Below, in pieces: positions 1 through 19,845 of a DNA stretch of 25,634 nucleotides. Positions within the stretch are counted from its first letter, which is position 1; the number at the start of each line of letters is the position of its first letter. The notes below the pieces were generated by a model, which did not search any database, was not told where the DNA came from, and was given only the letters and a program-made list of their open reading frames with translations. Origin of the DNA: a virus; the IMG/VR virus record IMGVR_UViG_3300045256_000840, positions 1-25,634 of that record; one strand, 5' to 3'. Position numbers and translations under genes: made by a program.

Positions 1-1251
1 GATCCTTATTTTTCAAAACAAACCTTCATCAATAGTGATGGCACTGAAAAAACTATTGAAGGACATTTTGATTCAGAGACAGGTGAATCATTGATAGAAA
101 GCGAAGAGGACTTTTTTGAACTTGTCACTAATGCTAAAGTAACCGCAGACAACGCAGAAGAGATTAAGAACCTTTTGGAACGAAAGAAAACGATCTCCCC
201 TGCTCAAGTATACAAAGAAGGCATTTATAACAAAAACGATATATTCGAGGTTATTGGCAGATACAAATTCTTAGATAAGAAATTTGCTGGGGATTGGATT
301 GTAATTCGATTCTTCGATTATAAAGAGCGGGGTCTCCCCTCTTCTAATATTAAAGACTTCAATTATAAATGGATATATAACCTCTGCGACTTTCTGTTCC
401 AGAACGGGGTGAGCGATTTCTCAAGCAAAAACTTCAACCCATTCAATTATGATCGTAACAGAATATTAAACGCAAATATCATTGAGTACACTGATCCCTC
501 GTTCGACAAATTTTTGAAATGGATCAGAAAATTATGCAAACTACTGCGTGATGACAACATTCTAGCAATTAGTGAAAAAGAAATACAAACATTGACTCCG
601 CGAACTTGGGGGATAAAGAAAATTCACCACAAGACTAGAAAGCAAGACAACTTATACAAGGATGAATTTGATATTTTGTTTAAAGCAAAGTTGAAAGATC
701 AGGGCGAATTTAAAGCAAAGGAACTTGAGAGAAGTCGTGATATATTCGTGTTGATGACTTGGTTCGGGGGATTACGGCCTGTGGAGTACACCAAAGACAA
801 CTTGCATTTATCAAAAGACGGAAAGGGTAATTACTACGTGAACTACTTTACTTCCGATAAGAACTCCAATGAAATCGATAATCCGGTTCTCAATTACTCA
901 TACGACATTTTAAAAAAATACAATTTCAAAATCCCATTTTTTGAAAATGTGAGACCAGATGTTTTTATTGAGCACCTTCGTGCTATCTGCGAACAACTCA
1001 ACTTGAATAGAGAATTCGTTAGAAACCTATCGTATAAAGGAAAATTAGTGCGTGAAAAAAGGACATTAAACGAGAATATTAATCGCTACTTCGCACGTAA
1101 AACGTTTATTCAAATTTTACGTGATGAAGGAATTTCCCTTGATGACATACACGCCTTCACAGGGCACGAAAGCGGTGAGATGATAAGCGCGTATTATACT
1201 AATTCATTAAAATGGAAGATTGAAAAAATCGAAAAGATAAAATGTAACTAG
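1..1251 (+). CDS. Tyrosine recombinase (phage integrase), 5' end cut by window edge
   Basis: This is a site-specific recombinase of the tyrosine family, expected to integrate and excise the phage. The reading frame is open from base 1 (beginning DPYFSKQTF), so the true start lies left of the window; the TTG at 91 is internal. Numbering from that TTG, the catalytic box I arginine is R229 (GGLRPVEY) and the box II lysine is probably K257 (TSDKNSNE). The second arginine is R336 (YFARKTF), followed by H359 (FTGHES) and the nucleophile Y368 (SAYYTN), nine residues after H359 as usual. The first residue of the HxxR motif is Y333 instead of His. The N-terminal half is the arm/core-binding region and is weakly conserved. 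The gene is on the opposite strand to nearly all others and converges on the end of the late operon. The family call is firm; the attachment site is not identifiable. Confidence 0.93.
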   Translation, partial: DPYFSKQTFINSDGTEKTIEGHFDSETGESLIESEEDFFELVTNAKVTADNAEEIKNLLERKKTISPAQVYKEGIYNKNDIFEVIGRYKFLDKKFAGDWIVIRFFDYKERGLPSSNIKDFNYKWIYNLCDFLFQNGVSDFSSKNFNPFNYDRNRILNANIIEYTDPSFDKFLKWIRKLCKLLRDDNILAISEKEIQTLTPRTWGIKKIHHKTRKQDNLYKDEFDILFKAKLKDQGEFKAKELERSRDIFVLMTWFGGLRPVEYTKDNLHLSKDGKGNYYVNYFTSDKNSNEIDNPVLNYSYDILKKYNFKIPFFENVRPDVFIEHLRAICEQLNLNREFVRNLSYKGKLVREKRTLNENINRYFARKTFIQILRDEGISLDDIHAFTGHESGEMISAYYTNSLKWKIEKIEKIKCN

Positions 1252-9234: not shown

Positions 9235-10320
9235 TTATTTTTTGATGTTATACTTCAATCTGAATTTATCAGCGTTTGAAAGTTTTGATAAATCGACCTC
9301 TTGGGTCTTCTCTTGTTTAAAAACAGGATTTACCAGAGGTGTTTTTTTTAATTTTTCGATCTCTTGTTTGAGAGTGTTGATTTCTTTTGAAAGATTTTCC
9401 TTCTCTTCCTTTACCTTTTGCAATTCATTTTTCACCTTTTCAAATTCCCCATCTTCCTTACTTTGCTGTACAGGTGTTTCAGTGATTGCAGTTAAAACGC
9501 CCGATGCAACAGAAATAGTAAAACCGTTGTCGAGAATATAATCTCCATCAGGAGCAGGTGAAGTTGAACCGTCATCAGCAACTACAAGAACAGGTTCACC
9601 AACAACTGTATATTGAACTGTGGCACCGTCTTGATTTTTTGCTGTTTCAAATTTCTTACTTTCATCTTCTTTACTATTTTGTTCGAGTTCAGAAAGCAAT
9701 TCTTTGAACTTCTTTAATATGTCATTCATTTGTTCATTGAAATTATTTATCAAATTATTTTTATCTATTACTCTATGAAATCTCTGTAAGAAGATTTCCA
9801 CTGAGAAGCCTTTTAATTCACCGTTCAAAACACGTTGGAACGTTTCTTTATCTTCAATCTTGTAAGCGACATACCAACTGCCTATTGTCGCCTCTTCAAT
9901 TCCTTTTGCTTTCACATCGCTTAATCGTTCCTCACTGTCTATGATGAATGATTCGATCAAAAAAGCATCTATGTAATTGTTGGAATTATGATCTGTGTTA
10001 ACCTGATTTGTTAATAGTTCTTTGTGAAACTTATTTCTGATTTGCTCGATACTATCTTTTGTGAAGTAACCAAAATATGGTTCTCCAAGATTATCAAAAC
10101 GTAAAATATCCTTGTCGGGAATTAGCGCAAGGCCGGCAACAACCTGCTTAAAGTTTTCGCCCTTCAATTCAATGAACTTATTCTTACTTGCCTTATTGAA
10201 GAATATAAAATCGCTCTCTATTGCTGGTTCGTCAACAAGTGATATTGTTTTAACACCGTTCAACGGATCATCACTATTAATTTCGAAACGGACACGAGGT
10301 ATTACTATATTATTATTCAA
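9235..10320 (-). CDS. Capsid maturation protease fused to scaffold (XkdF-like)
   Basis: Residues about 55-180 follow the XkdF-type putative serine protease (VAGLALIPDKDILR, GYFTKDSIEQIRNKF, NTDHN with H111, IGSWYVAYKI with S148, and GFSVEIF with S173). H111 and one of the two serines are likely catalytic. After a short helix with an internal Met at 198 there is a small beta insert (230-282, centred on TSPAPDGDYILDNGFTISV). Then come a strong coiled coil (about 287-326) and a tail (DLSKLSNADKFRLKYNIKK), as in scaffold proteins. The enzyme would cleave scaffold and capsid during head maturation. No ATG exists in frame near the start; TTG 10320 is used, and an in-frame TGA lies eight codons upstream. 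It sits directly before the capsid gene, as expected. Confidence 0.85.
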   Translation of the reverse strand: MNNNIVIPRVRFEINSDDPLNGVKTISLVDEPAIESDFIFFNKASKNKFIELKGENFKQVVAGLALIPDKDILRFDNLGEPYFGYFTKDSIEQIRNKFHKELLTNQVNTDHNSNNYIDAFLIESFIIDSEERLSDVKAKGIEEATIGSWYVAYKIEDKETFQRVLNGELKGFSVEIFLQRFHRVIDKNNLINNFNEQMNDILKKFKELLSELEQNSKEDESKKFETAKNQDGATVQYTVVGEPVLVVADDGSTSPAPDGDYILDNGFTISVASGVLTAITETPVQQSKEDGEFEKVKNELQKVKEEKENLSKEINTLKQEIEKLKKTPLVNPVFKQEKTQEVDLSKLSNADKFRLKYNIKK

Positions 10321-10353
10321 ATCTGCTTTTGAGTTAATTCAATCATATAATTA
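10317..10353 (-). promoter_or_regulatory. Leader of the protease gene: TAATTATA box and 9-codon mini-ORF
   Basis: A minus-strand TAATTATA box (10346-10353) overlaps an ATG (10346) that opens a mini-ORF, MIELTQKQI. Its TGA overlaps the TTG start of the protease as TTGA. This could couple translation by termination and re-initiation; it could also be chance. Confidence 0.35.
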
Positions 10354-10358
10354 CCATA

Positions 10359-10376
10359 GTTGCAAAAGTTGCAAAA
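10359..10376. repeat. Two tandem copies of GTTGCAAAA
   Basis: An exact 9-bp direct repeat lies between the tape measure stop and the protease leader. No function is evident. Confidence 0.7.
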
Positions 10377-10384
10377 GTTTATTT

Positions 10385-12640
10385 TTAGAGACTTGATCTC
10401 GATTCAATAAAGTCCACGGTATTGCTGACGTCTCTTGCTTCGGTCCACGATGCATATATTTTAATATTGCTAAATGCTTGTGTTAATGAAGCGGTACTAA
10501 GTGAATTGACACTTGATGTATCTATGCTAACAGGTATCGAAGAGGTAAATCCACCATCTGCAAATGTTGGCATCCCTTGTCTCATCGCTTCCAGCGTTCT
10601 TACTAACTCTGAACCAGCATTACTTCTCAATATATGTTGTGGAACAACATATTCTCCTTCGTGGACGACTCCTGCAACTCTATATCCCGTGTTATCGGCA
10701 GGGCCTATTGGAGTAGTAAAACCACCTTCTGCATATCCGGGTATTTGTGATGGCTTATTACTAGAAATTACACCTATCTCGATGCCACCAGCAGCAGCAA
10801 CCAAGGCTGCTAAAATAAACGAGTACGGTGGTGGTGCACTACTTAACGCTTGTGTTACACCTAATGCAGTGTTCGTTGTTGCATTCACTAACGAATTCAA
10901 CCAGTTTATTTCGTTCTGCTTATTTTGAGCCTTTATTTTTTGATTTTCAAGTTTACGCTGCTGCTCATATAAGCGTTGGGTATTAGTTCTTTCCTCATCA
11001 ATACCTGCAAGTAGTTCATCACGTGCTGCTCCTTGTGCATCTGCCAATTGTGCCTCTAATGCTTTTCTATTCTCGATAGATTGTGTGTATTGATTGTCTA
11101 TTGTCTCCAACTGAGTGTCGATAGAATCAATCTGACGTGATAGAATGTCCGTAATTGCACCAGTTATGTCATTGAAACTTGATTGAACCTGCTGAACAAT
11201 AGGCAAGACATTGTTCAACTTCTCTATGAACAGATCAAATTTCTTAGACTGTAGATCACTTAATGCTTGCTCTTGTTCTTCTGTTAGCGTTGATAACGAT
11301 TTGTAGTAACTTATTGCAGCATTTAAATTGTTTTCATAATTCTTCTTCTGTTCGATCTCTTGTCTTTTTGATGCTTGAAATCTGATTCTGAACAGTTCTT
11401 GTTCTGATAGATCAACATTATCAACCTTCTCTTGCTCTTGTTCAATATCGAAATTGACCTCTTCAACCTTTAACTGCTTTTGCTTCTCAAAATATTCATT
11501 TGACAACTTCAAGGAATAGGCAAGCATCTCGTCTTGTGCTTCTTTTTCAATGGACTGCTCATCTTCTACTCGCTTTGCTGTTGCTTTATATCTTTCTACC
11601 TGATCGAAGAATGCCTTCTTTCGTTGTTCTTCATTGAATTTATCTTCTTGTGCAGACAGTACTGATAATTGATTAGATAGATTTACTACACCTTTAGATG
11701 CTTCATCAAATTCCTTCTTTAAACGAGTAACATTGTCATTGATACTTCCTCCGTTTTTTTCGAGAATTTTTGAGATTTCGAAGTATTGTTCTTTAGTTAA
11801 ATTGGATATGTCAAATTGTTGCTTTTGAACATTGTATGCAGACAGCAATAAATTAAGTTCTCGCTGTAATTCGTCACGTAATGCTTTCTGATTTACTAAC
11901 TGAGCATTAAGACCTGCCCTTCTATTTTGAAATATTTCACTTTCTTTGTAACCGATCACAGAAAGCAACTCGTTCTGTGAAGCAAGTTCTGTATTGTATT
12001 GTGTAAGTGAGTCCTTAACTTTATCGATATTCTCTCTTGAGATTTCAAAGAATTCCTTTTCCTTCTCTGAAGCAAGACCAATGGCTTTTGCAATGTCATC
12101 CCAATAGGCGACTATTGTTCCAAGGGCAATTACAAATAACCCTATACCCGTTGCCGTTAACGCTGCTCTCGTAGTAGTGCCAAATAGTTTTGCTCCAATG
12201 GCCGATTGCTGGAAACCCTTAATAAGTTCAGTGAATGCTCTTCGATTGCTTGAAGTTAATCCTTCGGTGATCGGTTTAATTGCACTTATGACCGCACCTA
12301 AACTTGTAGCAACTTGAATTGCTTTCTGTATTTCTTCATTTGTCTTTGACCCGAAGGCAGTAACCGCTATTGTAGCAACACTCATTGCTGCTGCTATACT
12401 ACCACCTAACTTTGCAACACTATCCAATTGTTTCTCGTTAGAGATTCCTCTGAGGTCATCTTTGATATTCTTCAATTGGCCATCTGCCTTTTTCGCAGTA
12501 TTGGACAATTCAGTGAATGCCTCACTGTTAACGTCAATCTGCTTTAAATCTGCGTTGATTTCTTTCAAAACAGACTCTAAATCAGAAATAGATTTTGCGT
12601 TTGTTAGTTTTAATTGCAGTTCAACGGAACGTGTAGCCAC
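10385..12640 (-). CDS. Tail tape measure protein
   Basis: This is the 751-residue protein that sets tail length and occupies the tail tube. The N-terminus (VELQLKLTNAKSISDLESVLKEINADLKQIDVNSEAF) and the hydrophobic segment 'ALTATGIGLFVIALGTIVAYW' (about 160-181) match tape measure proteins. So do the long coiled-coil middle (about 340-600, rich in Glu, Gln and Lys) and the C-terminal 'GYAEGGFTTPIGPAD', 'VVHEGEYVVP' and 'FADGGF' motifs. It is short for a tape measure, suggesting a tail of roughly 110 nm if the usual 0.15 nm per residue holds. The GTG start at 12640 directly follows an in-frame TAG. In transcription order it comes after the two distal tail genes, the reverse of the common order. 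Confidence 0.9.
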   Translation of the reverse strand: MATRSVELQLKLTNAKSISDLESVLKEINADLKQIDVNSEAFTELSNTAKKADGQLKNIKDDLRGISNEKQLDSVAKLGGSIAAAMSVATIAVTAFGSKTNEEIQKAIQVATSLGAVISAIKPITEGLTSSNRRAFTELIKGFQQSAIGAKLFGTTTRAALTATGIGLFVIALGTIVAYWDDIAKAIGLASEKEKEFFEISRENIDKVKDSLTQYNTELASQNELLSVIGYKESEIFQNRRAGLNAQLVNQKALRDELQRELNLLLSAYNVQKQQFDISNLTKEQYFEISKILEKNGGSINDNVTRLKKEFDEASKGVVNLSNQLSVLSAQEDKFNEEQRKKAFFDQVERYKATAKRVEDEQSIEKEAQDEMLAYSLKLSNEYFEKQKQLKVEEVNFDIEQEQEKVDNVDLSEQELFRIRFQASKRQEIEQKKNYENNLNAAISYYKSLSTLTEEQEQALSDLQSKKFDLFIEKLNNVLPIVQQVQSSFNDITGAITDILSRQIDSIDTQLETIDNQYTQSIENRKALEAQLADAQGAARDELLAGIDEERTNTQRLYEQQRKLENQKIKAQNKQNEINWLNSLVNATTNTALGVTQALSSAPPPYSFILAALVAAAGGIEIGVISSNKPSQIPGYAEGGFTTPIGPADNTGYRVAGVVHEGEYVVPQHILRSNAGSELVRTLEAMRQGMPTFADGGFTSSIPVSIDTSSVNSLSTASLTQAFSNIKIYASWTEARDVSNTVDFIESRSSL

Positions 12641-18076: not shown

Positions 18077-18526
18077 TTAATTAAATTCATCTTGATAGTT
18101 CTTATTACAATAGGAGCGAAATACTCTCCCTTGAATTTCGAGCCGAAAACCTGATACGTTGTCATCACTATACTCACGAAGAGAAATACCGTTTACGTTA
18201 TTGATGATAAATCCAAATTGTTTTACTTCATCTTGAAATCTGGTGATAATAGCATCGCAAATCTGTTCTGCTTCACTGATGTTCTCGTGGTCGTCTTTAA
18301 TATCATCATCCGTTGGAGTCATTAAAACATTAAGTGCGAATGATAATGTTTTGAATCTATTGTCAGATTCATAATTGATCGAATACGGAAGTTCAAGAAA
18401 CACTAATGGGTAATCCTTACCCTTGCCAGTGGCTAATAGAAAATCTTCGCCATAATCGAAGTCTCTGATTTCCTTATGAGATAGGGATATGTTTTTAATA
18501 GTATGTCTAAGTTCTTCAAGTGTCAT
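18077..18526 (-). CDS. Tail-terminator-like protein
   Basis: This is a 149-residue protein with the alpha/beta layout of tail-terminator/tail-completion proteins of Bacteroidetes phages. It has an N-terminal helix (EELRHTIKNISLSHKEI), a strand pair around 'DYPLVFLELPYSINYES', 'FALNVLMTPTDDD', a helix 'EAEQICDAIITRFQDEV' and the final strands 'LREYSDDNVSGFRLEIQGRVF'. Such proteins cap the tail tube and make the joint with the head. The start is ATG 18526, 3 nt after the stop of the -1-frame product of the gene upstream. Assignment is from pattern and context. Confidence 0.7.
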   Translation of the reverse strand: MTLEELRHTIKNISLSHKEIRDFDYGEDFLLATGKGKDYPLVFLELPYSINYESDNRFKTLSFALNVLMTPTDDDIKDDHENISEAEQICDAIITRFQDEVKQFGFIINNVNGISLREYSDDNVSGFRLEIQGRVFRSYCNKNYQDEFN

Positions 18527-18529
18527 ATA

Positions 18530-19353
18530 TCAATGCCTTCTATTATTATTACTGTTTATTTTCTTTCTTGTTTCCTCATCAATTACTTTTTGAACATCGG
18601 CATCAAGTTTCATCTTCCTTTGTTTAAGTTGATAGAACCATAATAACGTTTCCAGTTTTTCAGTAAGAACTTGACGTAAGCGCGTAATATCACCCGATGT
18701 AAGTGCATAAATAATCCCCCATAATTTGACTTCTTTGGAGTATTCAGTATAGAGTTTATCTGCTCGTGCATAACCTGATCCGCTTGAATAAGAAGCGTTC
18801 GATAATCTATCGTATATAACTTTGCGATCAGAGCAAAAAAAAACCAGATATTATTTGCAATGGTTATTTGTAAATCTTCAAAGTGTTTCGCTCGGTCTTC
18901 AATATTGAAGTCAGATAGTGATTCAAATGTGGAATCATCTTTTTTCCTCTTGGCAAGAATAGCAACAATGATCGGCAATGCTTTATACTCTTTACCTTGG
19001 TATTGATCCAATATTGATTCAAGCGATATGAAGTCTTGCGTCTCTGCCTTCAATAATGTCTGAACTACACTATATGTATCGCCCTTGTAATTGAATTCTG
19101 TAACTTGTTTGTTAACAATTGGGGTTGAAATAAATGAAAGACTGTCTAGCAAGATTTTGATGTCAGTGATCTTCATCTTCTTCACCACATCTAGTGTAAC
19201 ATCACAGTAAGCAGCGACAACGCACAAAGATTTATAATCCGTGTTCGATGATGAAGTTAGTTCTTCAAGTAACATTTGTTTCTTTATCGTAATCTCTTCC
19301 CAAGATTCAGGGACATTAATAACACCGTGTTCTTCTATTTCTATTTGCTTCAT
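18530..19353 (-). CDS. Predicted -1 frameshift product of the tail-chaperone-like gene (274 aa)
   Basis: Residues 1-173 are read in the zero frame. Slipping back one base on the T9 run (18835-18843) enters a frame open for another 101 codons, to TGA 18530-18532. The new C-terminus contains LWGIIYALTSGDITRLRQVL, ETLLWFYQLKQRKMKLDADV and QKVIDEETRKKIN. This is helical and charged, and reads more like a normal phage protein than the zero-frame alternative. It ends 3 nt before the next ATG, matching the tight packing of this operon; the zero-frame stop leaves an 83-nt gap. The site T TTT TTT is a canonical -1 slippery heptamer. G/GT-type tail chaperones use this kind of shift. A real or sequencing-made indel in the T run is the alternative. 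Confidence 0.7.
18610..19353 (-). CDS. Tail assembly chaperone-like protein, zero-frame product (247 aa)
   Basis: It starts at ATG 19353, directly abutting the lysin stop (TGAATG). The N-terminus (EHGVINVPESWEEITIKKQ) is a pattern found in Bacteroidetes phage proteins of about 250 residues in the tail module. The next 150 residues are mostly helical. At residues 171-173 the codons are TTT TTT TTT. After them the zero frame continues for 74 codons (ending GSINLNKGR), rich in Leu, His and Arg. I infer a chaperone of the tape measure because of its place in the tail block, its helical character and the likely -1 frameshift; no motif proves it. Which of the two C-termini is the main product cannot be settled from sequence. 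Confidence 0.7.
   Translation of the reverse strand: MKQIEIEEHGVINVPESWEEITIKKQMLLEELTSSSNTDYKSLCVVAAYCDVTLDVVKKMKITDIKILLDSLSFISTPIVNKQVTEFNYKGDTYSVVQTLLKAETQDFISLESILDQYQGKEYKALPIIVAILAKRKKDDSTFESLSDFNIEDRAKHFEDLQITIANNIWFFFALIAKLYTIDYRTLLIQADQVMHEQINSILNTPKKSNYGGLFMHLHRVILRAYVKFLLKNWKRYYGSINLNKGR
18835..18843 (-). other. Slippery site T TTT TTT (nine-T run) for -1 frameshift
   Basis: On the minus strand, codons TGG TTT TTT TTT GCT contain nine consecutive T. Both the zero and -1 frames stay open well beyond it (74 and 101 codons). I did not identify a clear downstream stem-loop or upstream Shine-Dalgarno-like stimulator by eye. Confidence 0.65.
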
Positions 19354-19845
19354 TCAATCTATGGTTATAAATCCTAATACATTTAAGCCGTTCTTTTTCT
19401 TTCCCGTTGATCTTGTCTTCTCTGCAACTATATATCCTTCACGTCCACCGTTGTCATTTGTATTGCCTTCAATAGATTGAAATGAACTATCAGAAAGTCT
19501 TTTTGAAACAATACCAGCATGACCAGTCCAACCCGGTTTACCGTTTTCATAGTACTGCCATATCACTAGAGCACCGACAACGGGAGTTGTTGAAACCTTA
19601 TATTTCGCATCAGTAAAATTCTTGAACGTCTGGACTGCACTTGCGCTAAATAGTTTATCTAGTTCTTCAAACTTGTCTGGATATGCTTCCTTAAATACTA
19701 ACTCTGCAAAATATGAGCACCATGCCTGACCTTTTTGAAAGCCCACGGCAATCATTTTCGTCTCATATTCAAGATCATTGAACCCTTGATTATTCGGTTT
19801 TTCTGTTTGCCCTAAGTATTTTTTTGCTGTTTCGACAACGCCCAT
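19354..19845 (-). CDS. CHAP-domain peptidoglycan hydrolase (endolysin)
   Basis: This is a 163-residue cysteine amidase/peptidase that would cleave peptidoglycan at lysis. The CHAP core is visible: C43 in QAWCSYFAE, H109 in WTGHAGIV and the acid/amide triad member in SIEGNTN (E126/N128). The N-terminus (VVETAKKYLGQTEKPNNQG) is the usual lead-in helix of single-domain lysins. There is no signal peptide or cell-wall-binding repeat, so export would need a holin. No holin is adjacent; candidates lie at 1.85-2.24 kb. The start is ATG 19845. A tail-associated muralytic role is possible since it sits among tail genes, but its single-domain form favours a lysin. Confidence 0.88.
   Translation of the reverse strand: MGVVETAKKYLGQTEKPNNQGFNDLEYETKMIAVGFQKGQAWCSYFAELVFKEAYPDKFEELDKLFSASAVQTFKNFTDAKYKVSTTPVVGALVIWQYYENGKPGWTGHAGIVSKRLSDSSFQSIEGNTNDNGGREGYIVAEKTRSTGKKKNGLNVLGFITID

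Follow-up and report, generated by a model that had tools for sequence, protein, structure and literature searches.

The gene and its surroundings in the window

The window, which is the whole stretch of 25,634 nucleotides that was analysed, contains a minus-strand gene that is predicted to encode two proteins with a common N-terminus and different C-termini. The following features are referred to in the text.

19353-19351, minus strand: ATG start codon of the frameshifted gene, from the ORF reading of the window
18610-19353, minus strand: zero-frame product, G-like, 247 aa, with the predicted N-terminal chaperone domain, FFF at the slip site and a 74-codon tail
18844-19353, minus strand: putative chaperone domain common to both products, residues 1-170, distant kin of Phage_TAC_7 and P2 gpE via its homologues
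18835-18843, minus strand: slip site, T9, in TGG TTT TTT TTT GCT, with T TTT TTT in the X XXY YYZ register
18613-18834, minus strand: candidate dual-coded overlap, in which the zero-frame tail and the -1 domain both seem constrained between the window and its nearest relative, L005
18530-18835, minus strand: -1 frame C-terminal domain, T-like, 101 codons plus stop
18077-18526, minus strand: next tail-module gene, 149 aa, starting 3 nt past the -1 stop
10385-12640, minus strand: tape measure protein (TMP) gene, 751 aa, PHROG 3336 with an E-value of 1.9e-14

The gene very probably codes for a tail assembly chaperone and yields two proteins via a programmed -1 frameshift at the T run. A reading made from the sequence alone had drawn attention to nine T's followed by two open frames, and all of its figures are correct for the minus strand. 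The zero frame continues for 74 codons after the T9 and stops at 18612-18610, and the -1 frame is open for 101 codons and stops at 18532-18530. The ATG of the next gene at 18526 leaves a gap of 3 nt from the -1 stop and of 83 nt from the zero-frame stop. The GT-like fusion is 274 aa long. The T9, which reads as A9 on the plus strand, is the longest homopolymer in the window. An A9 or T9 was present somewhere in 87% of first-order Markov simulations of 25.6 kb at 36% GC, and the argument that the run is improbable in itself was therefore dropped; the case rests on the comparison with homologues.

The minus-strand gene order of the window is unusual, with terminase, endolysin, chaperone, tail genes and TMP preceding capsid protease, major capsid protein (MCP), a likely tail tube protein and portal, and an order much like it is also found in distant relatives. 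An integrase-like gene at one end of the window (1-1251) suggests a temperate phage, and a CHAP-domain endolysin gene (19354-19845) is located directly upstream of the chaperone gene. The TMP gene lies ~6 kb downstream of the chaperone gene in the same strand block, with five genes between them, and the TMP is presumed to be the client of the chaperone.

Homologues and the frame under selection

Direct searches of isolated phages with the window protein, the TMP, an 859-aa protein, the MCP and the next gene gave no match, and scans of viral contigs with the chaperone gene, the MCP and the 859-aa protein found one relative only. Twenty-two more distant contigs were reached with an alignment of two capsid protease sequences. 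Searching with profiles of the chaperone fusion then added the split gene of 12 further viral records and of one Bacteroidetes MAG. The complete Nonlabens phages P12024L and P12024S were reached via the protein of a distant relative and are included in the ~16 further phage records with the split gene, referred to here as the T9 group. Every split copy read in this group has its N-terminal and C-terminal parts in different frames that are joined at the T run. The run is T9 throughout, except for T10 in L038 and L039, and occurs in codon phases 0, 1 and 2. T TTT TTT is in register in the window and in all split homologues, and the alignment of the fused proteins features two invariant columns only, which are the FF at the slip site.

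The nearest relative, IMGVR_UViG_3300025298_000065 (L005), has the gene order of the window, and the fusion proteins of the two are 44% identical. Its slip site, GCT TTT TTT TTG, also has nine T's, however, the codon phase differs from that of the window. Past the run both frames are open, for 98 and 111 codons. In L005 and L042 the -1 stop overlaps the start of the next gene as ATGA.

Two isolated phages carry more distant relatives. In gp3 of Elizabethkingia phage TCUEAP1 (L110, 2147-2689) a related C-domain is in the same frame as the N-terminal part and there is no T run, so that fusion of this domain does not require a shift. The sequence-only reading had looked to a homologue running in one frame without a T run as evidence against a shift; TCUEAP1 gp3 is such a homologue, yet it leaves the case for the shift in the split copies intact. 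Flavobacterium phage 6H gp10 (L111, ~10048-10927, minus strand) is a weak structural relative with T TTT TTC near its end. A stop directly after T TTT TTC in the -1 frame led to its rejection as a clear family member. A C-domain-like ORF is located in an unannotated gap beyond this stop, which may reflect another mechanism or an error.

The T9-group profile also matched prophages in other Bacteroidota genomes, which form a T7 sister group. Of 401 genomes from one Bacteroidota order, 91 were found to have the split gene with a profile built from these prophages. Thirty T7-group loci were read (L080-L109) and 28 were aligned, and all 28 have a CAT TTT TTT site (24 with T7 and 4 with T8) in the X XXY YYZ register. 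L093 has CAT TTT TTT too, but stands outside the 28 aligned loci, and in the prophage copy L089 unrelated DNA interrupts the gene right at the slip site. The T7 and T9 groups align with an hhalign probability of 97.4% and an E-value of 1.2e-11 through the slip site, and their homology is judged secure from this alignment.

Differences between homologues were sorted by codon position, the second position of a zero-frame codon being the third in the -1 frame. In a marine cluster of seven sequences the fractions at positions 1/2/3 are 0.27/0.08/0.65 upstream of the run and 0.09/0.67/0.25 in the overlap, and in the T7 group they are 0.26/0.19/0.55 upstream and 0.15/0.55/0.30 after the T run. This switch at the run indicates that the encoded protein passes from the zero frame to the -1 frame there in both groups. 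Purifying selection, as read from these differences, is passed from the zero to the -1 frame at the T run in two independent groups. Conservation of the T run and the rates in both frames after it had been proposed as checks, and both bear out the shift: the run is present at the junction in every split homologue read, and the frame under selection changes at the run. All of these homologues (~16 records and 28 prophage loci) also have a -1 frame that is open and encodes a conserved domain, and the conservation of the frameshift and of its site is shown by this sequence comparison.

The overlap behaves differently in the lineage of the window. Between the window and L005 the differences in the overlap are flat by codon position (25/32/32). 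When the -1 proteins were fixed and synonymous codons were resampled, the zero-frame similarity was 19 ± 18 compared to the observed 100 (z ~4.4), and the reverse resampling with the zero-frame proteins fixed gave 31 ± 18 compared to the observed 124 (z ~5.1). The zero frame stayed open over 65 codons in just 0.4% of the resamples for the window and 3% for L005. As a control, the same statistic averages 0.4-0.6 and never exceeds 3.2 in 33 blocks of ordinary genes from the window and L005. Because the resampling scores are far above those of ordinary genes, both C-termini are probably functional in the window and L005, a suggestive result from two sequences. The proposal of two alternative C-termini is thus sustained for the window and L005, where both frames appear constrained, and does not extend to the wider family. 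Dual coding as a family-wide property was rejected, since the marine and T7 groups show an overlap that evolves in the -1 frame alone.

Probable ribosomal and possible transcriptional slippage

The T7 group features a conserved element upstream of its slip site. GGGTAACGGAGGCRCTGCCCAT, which spans codons -10 to -4 before the slip, is near-invariant in the 28 prophage copies at synonymous positions as well, with ACG, GAG, CTG and CCC kept in 28 of 28 copies and GTA in 27 of 28. The usual Glu codon of the T7-group gene is GAA, yet GAG is fixed in GGGTAACGGAGGCRCTGCCCAT. This codon conservation makes GGGTAACGGAGGCRCTGCCCAT look like a cis-acting 5' regulatory element. It holds GGAGG, 19 nt from the T run; classic stimulators sit 10-14 nt from the slip site, closer than the GGAGG here. 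Additionally, 22 IMG/VR contigs carry GGGTAACGGAGGCRCTGCCCAT plus T7, and the element is absent from the window. Stimulatory RNA structures 3' of the site accompany many, though not all, programmed -1 ribosomal shifts. Structure z scores gave no signal for a 3' stem-loop or pseudoknot (mean z near 0 in the T7 group and -1.5 to +1.1 in the others) or for RNA structure on either side of the T7-group slip site, and an RNA stem-loop as stimulator was rejected for want of support from these scores. The constant X XXY YYZ register of the runs in the T7 group speaks for slippage by the ribosome, which is near-certain in this group.

The assignment is less firm for the T9 group. The slip in the window is most likely ribosomal and located on T TTT TTT, which we hold with modest confidence. 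The serious rival is slippage of RNA polymerase on the T9, which would produce mRNAs with ten or more U's that are translated normally into the fusion; this is possible, and for the window a transcriptional or mixed slip is a tenable, if tentative, reading. One observation in its favor is the length of the run. Nine T9-group lineages have 9, 9, 10, 9, 9, 9, 9, 9 and 9 T's in three codon phases, and at least eight of nine at exactly nine has a probability of ~1e-5 if only the heptamer is selected, under a simple flanking model that ignores shared ancestry. A fixed length of nine regardless of phase is not required by ribosomal slippage alone, and bacterial RNA polymerase is reported to slip efficiently in vivo on runs of nine A's or T's (PMC5009743). 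Slippage at T9 or A9 in Shigella mxiE/spa13 and Thermus dnaX shares the run of nine and its independence of phase, however, these are other genes, and a T7 sister group exists here (PMC5009743). A homopolymer of at least nine with a phase-independent length is a feature of the T9 group only, not of the T7 group, and no ribosomal stimulator was found in the T9 group. Against polymerase slippage, the sister group uses T7-T8 that is always in the ribosomal register, P2-type chaperones use T6G (PMC3931495), and any T9 holds an in-register T TTT TTT. The lineages also share ancestry, so that the length may be partly inherited. The original claim of a programmed -1 shift holds as to the change of frame at the T run, and transcriptional slippage is a serious rival to ribosomal slippage in the T9 group.

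Nature of the products and significance

The AF2 model of residues 1-173 of the window protein has a pLDDT of 91.6. A structure search of BFVD with this model matched many uncharacterised phage proteins, and the functionally named matches with E-values below 0.07 are all chaperones, for tail assembly or for the tape measure (5e-4, 0.044 and 0.06). No PDB entry matches the N-domain model, and a fold search with the C-domain was uninformative. Neither Pfam nor PHROG gives a match of note for the window protein itself, which falls below all family thresholds. Three of ten family members match PF10109 (Phage_TAC_7, the P2 gpE and Mu 41 type of tail assembly chaperone), with the best at 7e-4 and 20 bits, below the 25-bit cut-off, and five of ten match PHROG 166, with the best at 2.8e-7; P2 gpE, used as a control, matches both. 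No match to PF06894 or PF06223 was found. The proposed identity as a tail chaperone is supported by these distant sequence matches, which are shared with P2 gpE, and by the structural matches of the model.

The nearest known system is from phage P2, which makes an E+E' fusion by -1 slippage at T6G; the site in phage Smp131 is T7G (PMC3931495). The P2 sequence as read here has the site GGT TTT TTG. The P2 gpE and gpE+E' proteins resemble this family in matching the same Pfam and PHROG models, in the -1 shift on an in-register T run, and in an extension that ends at the next gene. However, P2 E is 91 aa, whereas the G form here is about 175-260 aa and the GT form about 230-280 aa. The P2 extension is located immediately before the TMP gene, whereas the TMP gene here is several genes away, and the sites here are T7-T10 with a zero frame that continues 20-98 codons past the slip. 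Phage lambda also makes short and -1-extended chaperone forms, with a small C-domain added by the shift, at a G:GT ratio of ~30:1, and the virion contains neither of them (PMC5009743). In lambda, G and T are flanked by the major tail gene and the TMP gene, whereas the TMP gene here is ~6 kb away, and the lambda zero frame ends ~6 codons past the start of T. In addition, the proteins here do not match PF06894 (Phage_TAC_2) or PF06223 (Phage_tail_T), and the fold model is without a PDB match. The sequence-only reading, which saw a Bacteroidetes-phage equivalent of G/GT, is supported as to the kind of gene, but its closest known counterpart is P2 E/E+E', not lambda G/GT.

In the proposed mechanism most ribosomes would stay in frame across the T9 and yield the 247-aa G-like protein, and a minority would enter the -1 frame and yield the 274-aa G-T-like fusion with a helical C-domain. 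In analogy to phages lambda and P2, the N-domain common to both products would, in the short form, coat the TMP and the C-domain of the long form would recruit the tail tube subunit, and with these two roles the ratio of the two proteins would matter for tail building. From the same analogy we infer the client proteins, a tuned product ratio and a role in tail length.

A frameshifted structural gene of another kind, such as a neck or packaging protein by TerL, is improbable. The gene is located directly downstream of TerL in several relatives and the TMP gene is not adjacent, which would suit such a protein, but the PF10109 and PHROG 166 matches are common with P2 gpE, the structural matches are chaperones, and the gene heads the block that runs to the TMP gene. 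The chaperone likewise opens this block in L020, L030, L034 and L035, with 4 to 7 genes between.

The two Nonlabens phages bear on whether the C-domain is a gene of its own, as P12024L_41 is annotated, that is translated through re-initiation or internal initiation. Their _40 and _41 genes share the two-part layout, the T9 and the -1 domain with the window (PHROG 32199 and 38404), but the annotation, directly after TerL, lists a separate hypothetical protein for each, and their zero-frame tail is 25 codons only. The halves are 175 and 55 aa, which are the lengths of PHROG 32199 and 38404. An ATG does sit at the zero-frame stop in P12024L and P12024S; however, conservation of the -1 frame begins at the slip site itself, ahead of any start codon, and TCUEAP1 carries such a C-domain in one continuous frame. 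Several members, L050-L052 and L056, have no ATG, GTG or TTG in the -1 frame at all, and in the window none occurs ahead of codon 74. The frequent lack of a start codon before the conserved motif argues against internal initiation, which was rejected; in the window no usable -1 start precedes the motif, and a separate gene is very improbable overall. Weaker still is a sequencing or assembly error in a single-frame gene with 8 or 10 T's, to which we give almost no credence: long homopolymers are error-prone and the contigs are metagenomic, but a second assembly, IMGVR_UViG_3300045107_000220 (IMG/VR taxon 3300045107), is identical to the window over 12.5 kb, T9 included, which counts only against assembly error as it may be the same phage population, and the same split is present in the complete P12024L/S genomes and in dozens of prophages with T7, a far less error-prone length.

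Frameshifted tail chaperones are a known kind of gene from phages lambda and P2. A family that extends across the Bacteroidota, with all-T sites of 7-10, a candidate 5' element in one branch and a probable dual-coded end in another, looks new, and no publication on this family or on a tail-chaperone frameshift in Bacteroidota phages was found in the part of the literature that was covered. The preferred reading of a frameshifted tail chaperone gives a large set of Bacteroidota phages and prophages a named tail assembly chaperone; where annotations are visible, their gene is entered as a single hypothetical protein or as a pair of them (PHROG 32199 and 38404, 'unknown function'). PHROG 32199 and 38404 would then be one frameshifted gene. 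The dual-coded C-terminus is likely to be an instance of overprinting. Shine-Dalgarno pairing is not known to be much used for initiation in the Bacteroidota, and here an SD-like GGAGG is under extreme synonymous constraint in this phylum. T7 with the 5' element and T9 without it form a natural comparison for slippage by the Bacteroidota ribosome and RNA polymerase. A further proposal, which we regard as unlikely, is that the fusion is made wholly or partly by RNA polymerase in the T9 group and by the ribosome with GGGTAACGGAGGCRCTGCCCAT in the T7 group, and that in the lineage of the window the zero-frame tail has also become a second C-terminus under selection of its own. If this is true, two decoding mechanisms would have been interchanged within one gene family.
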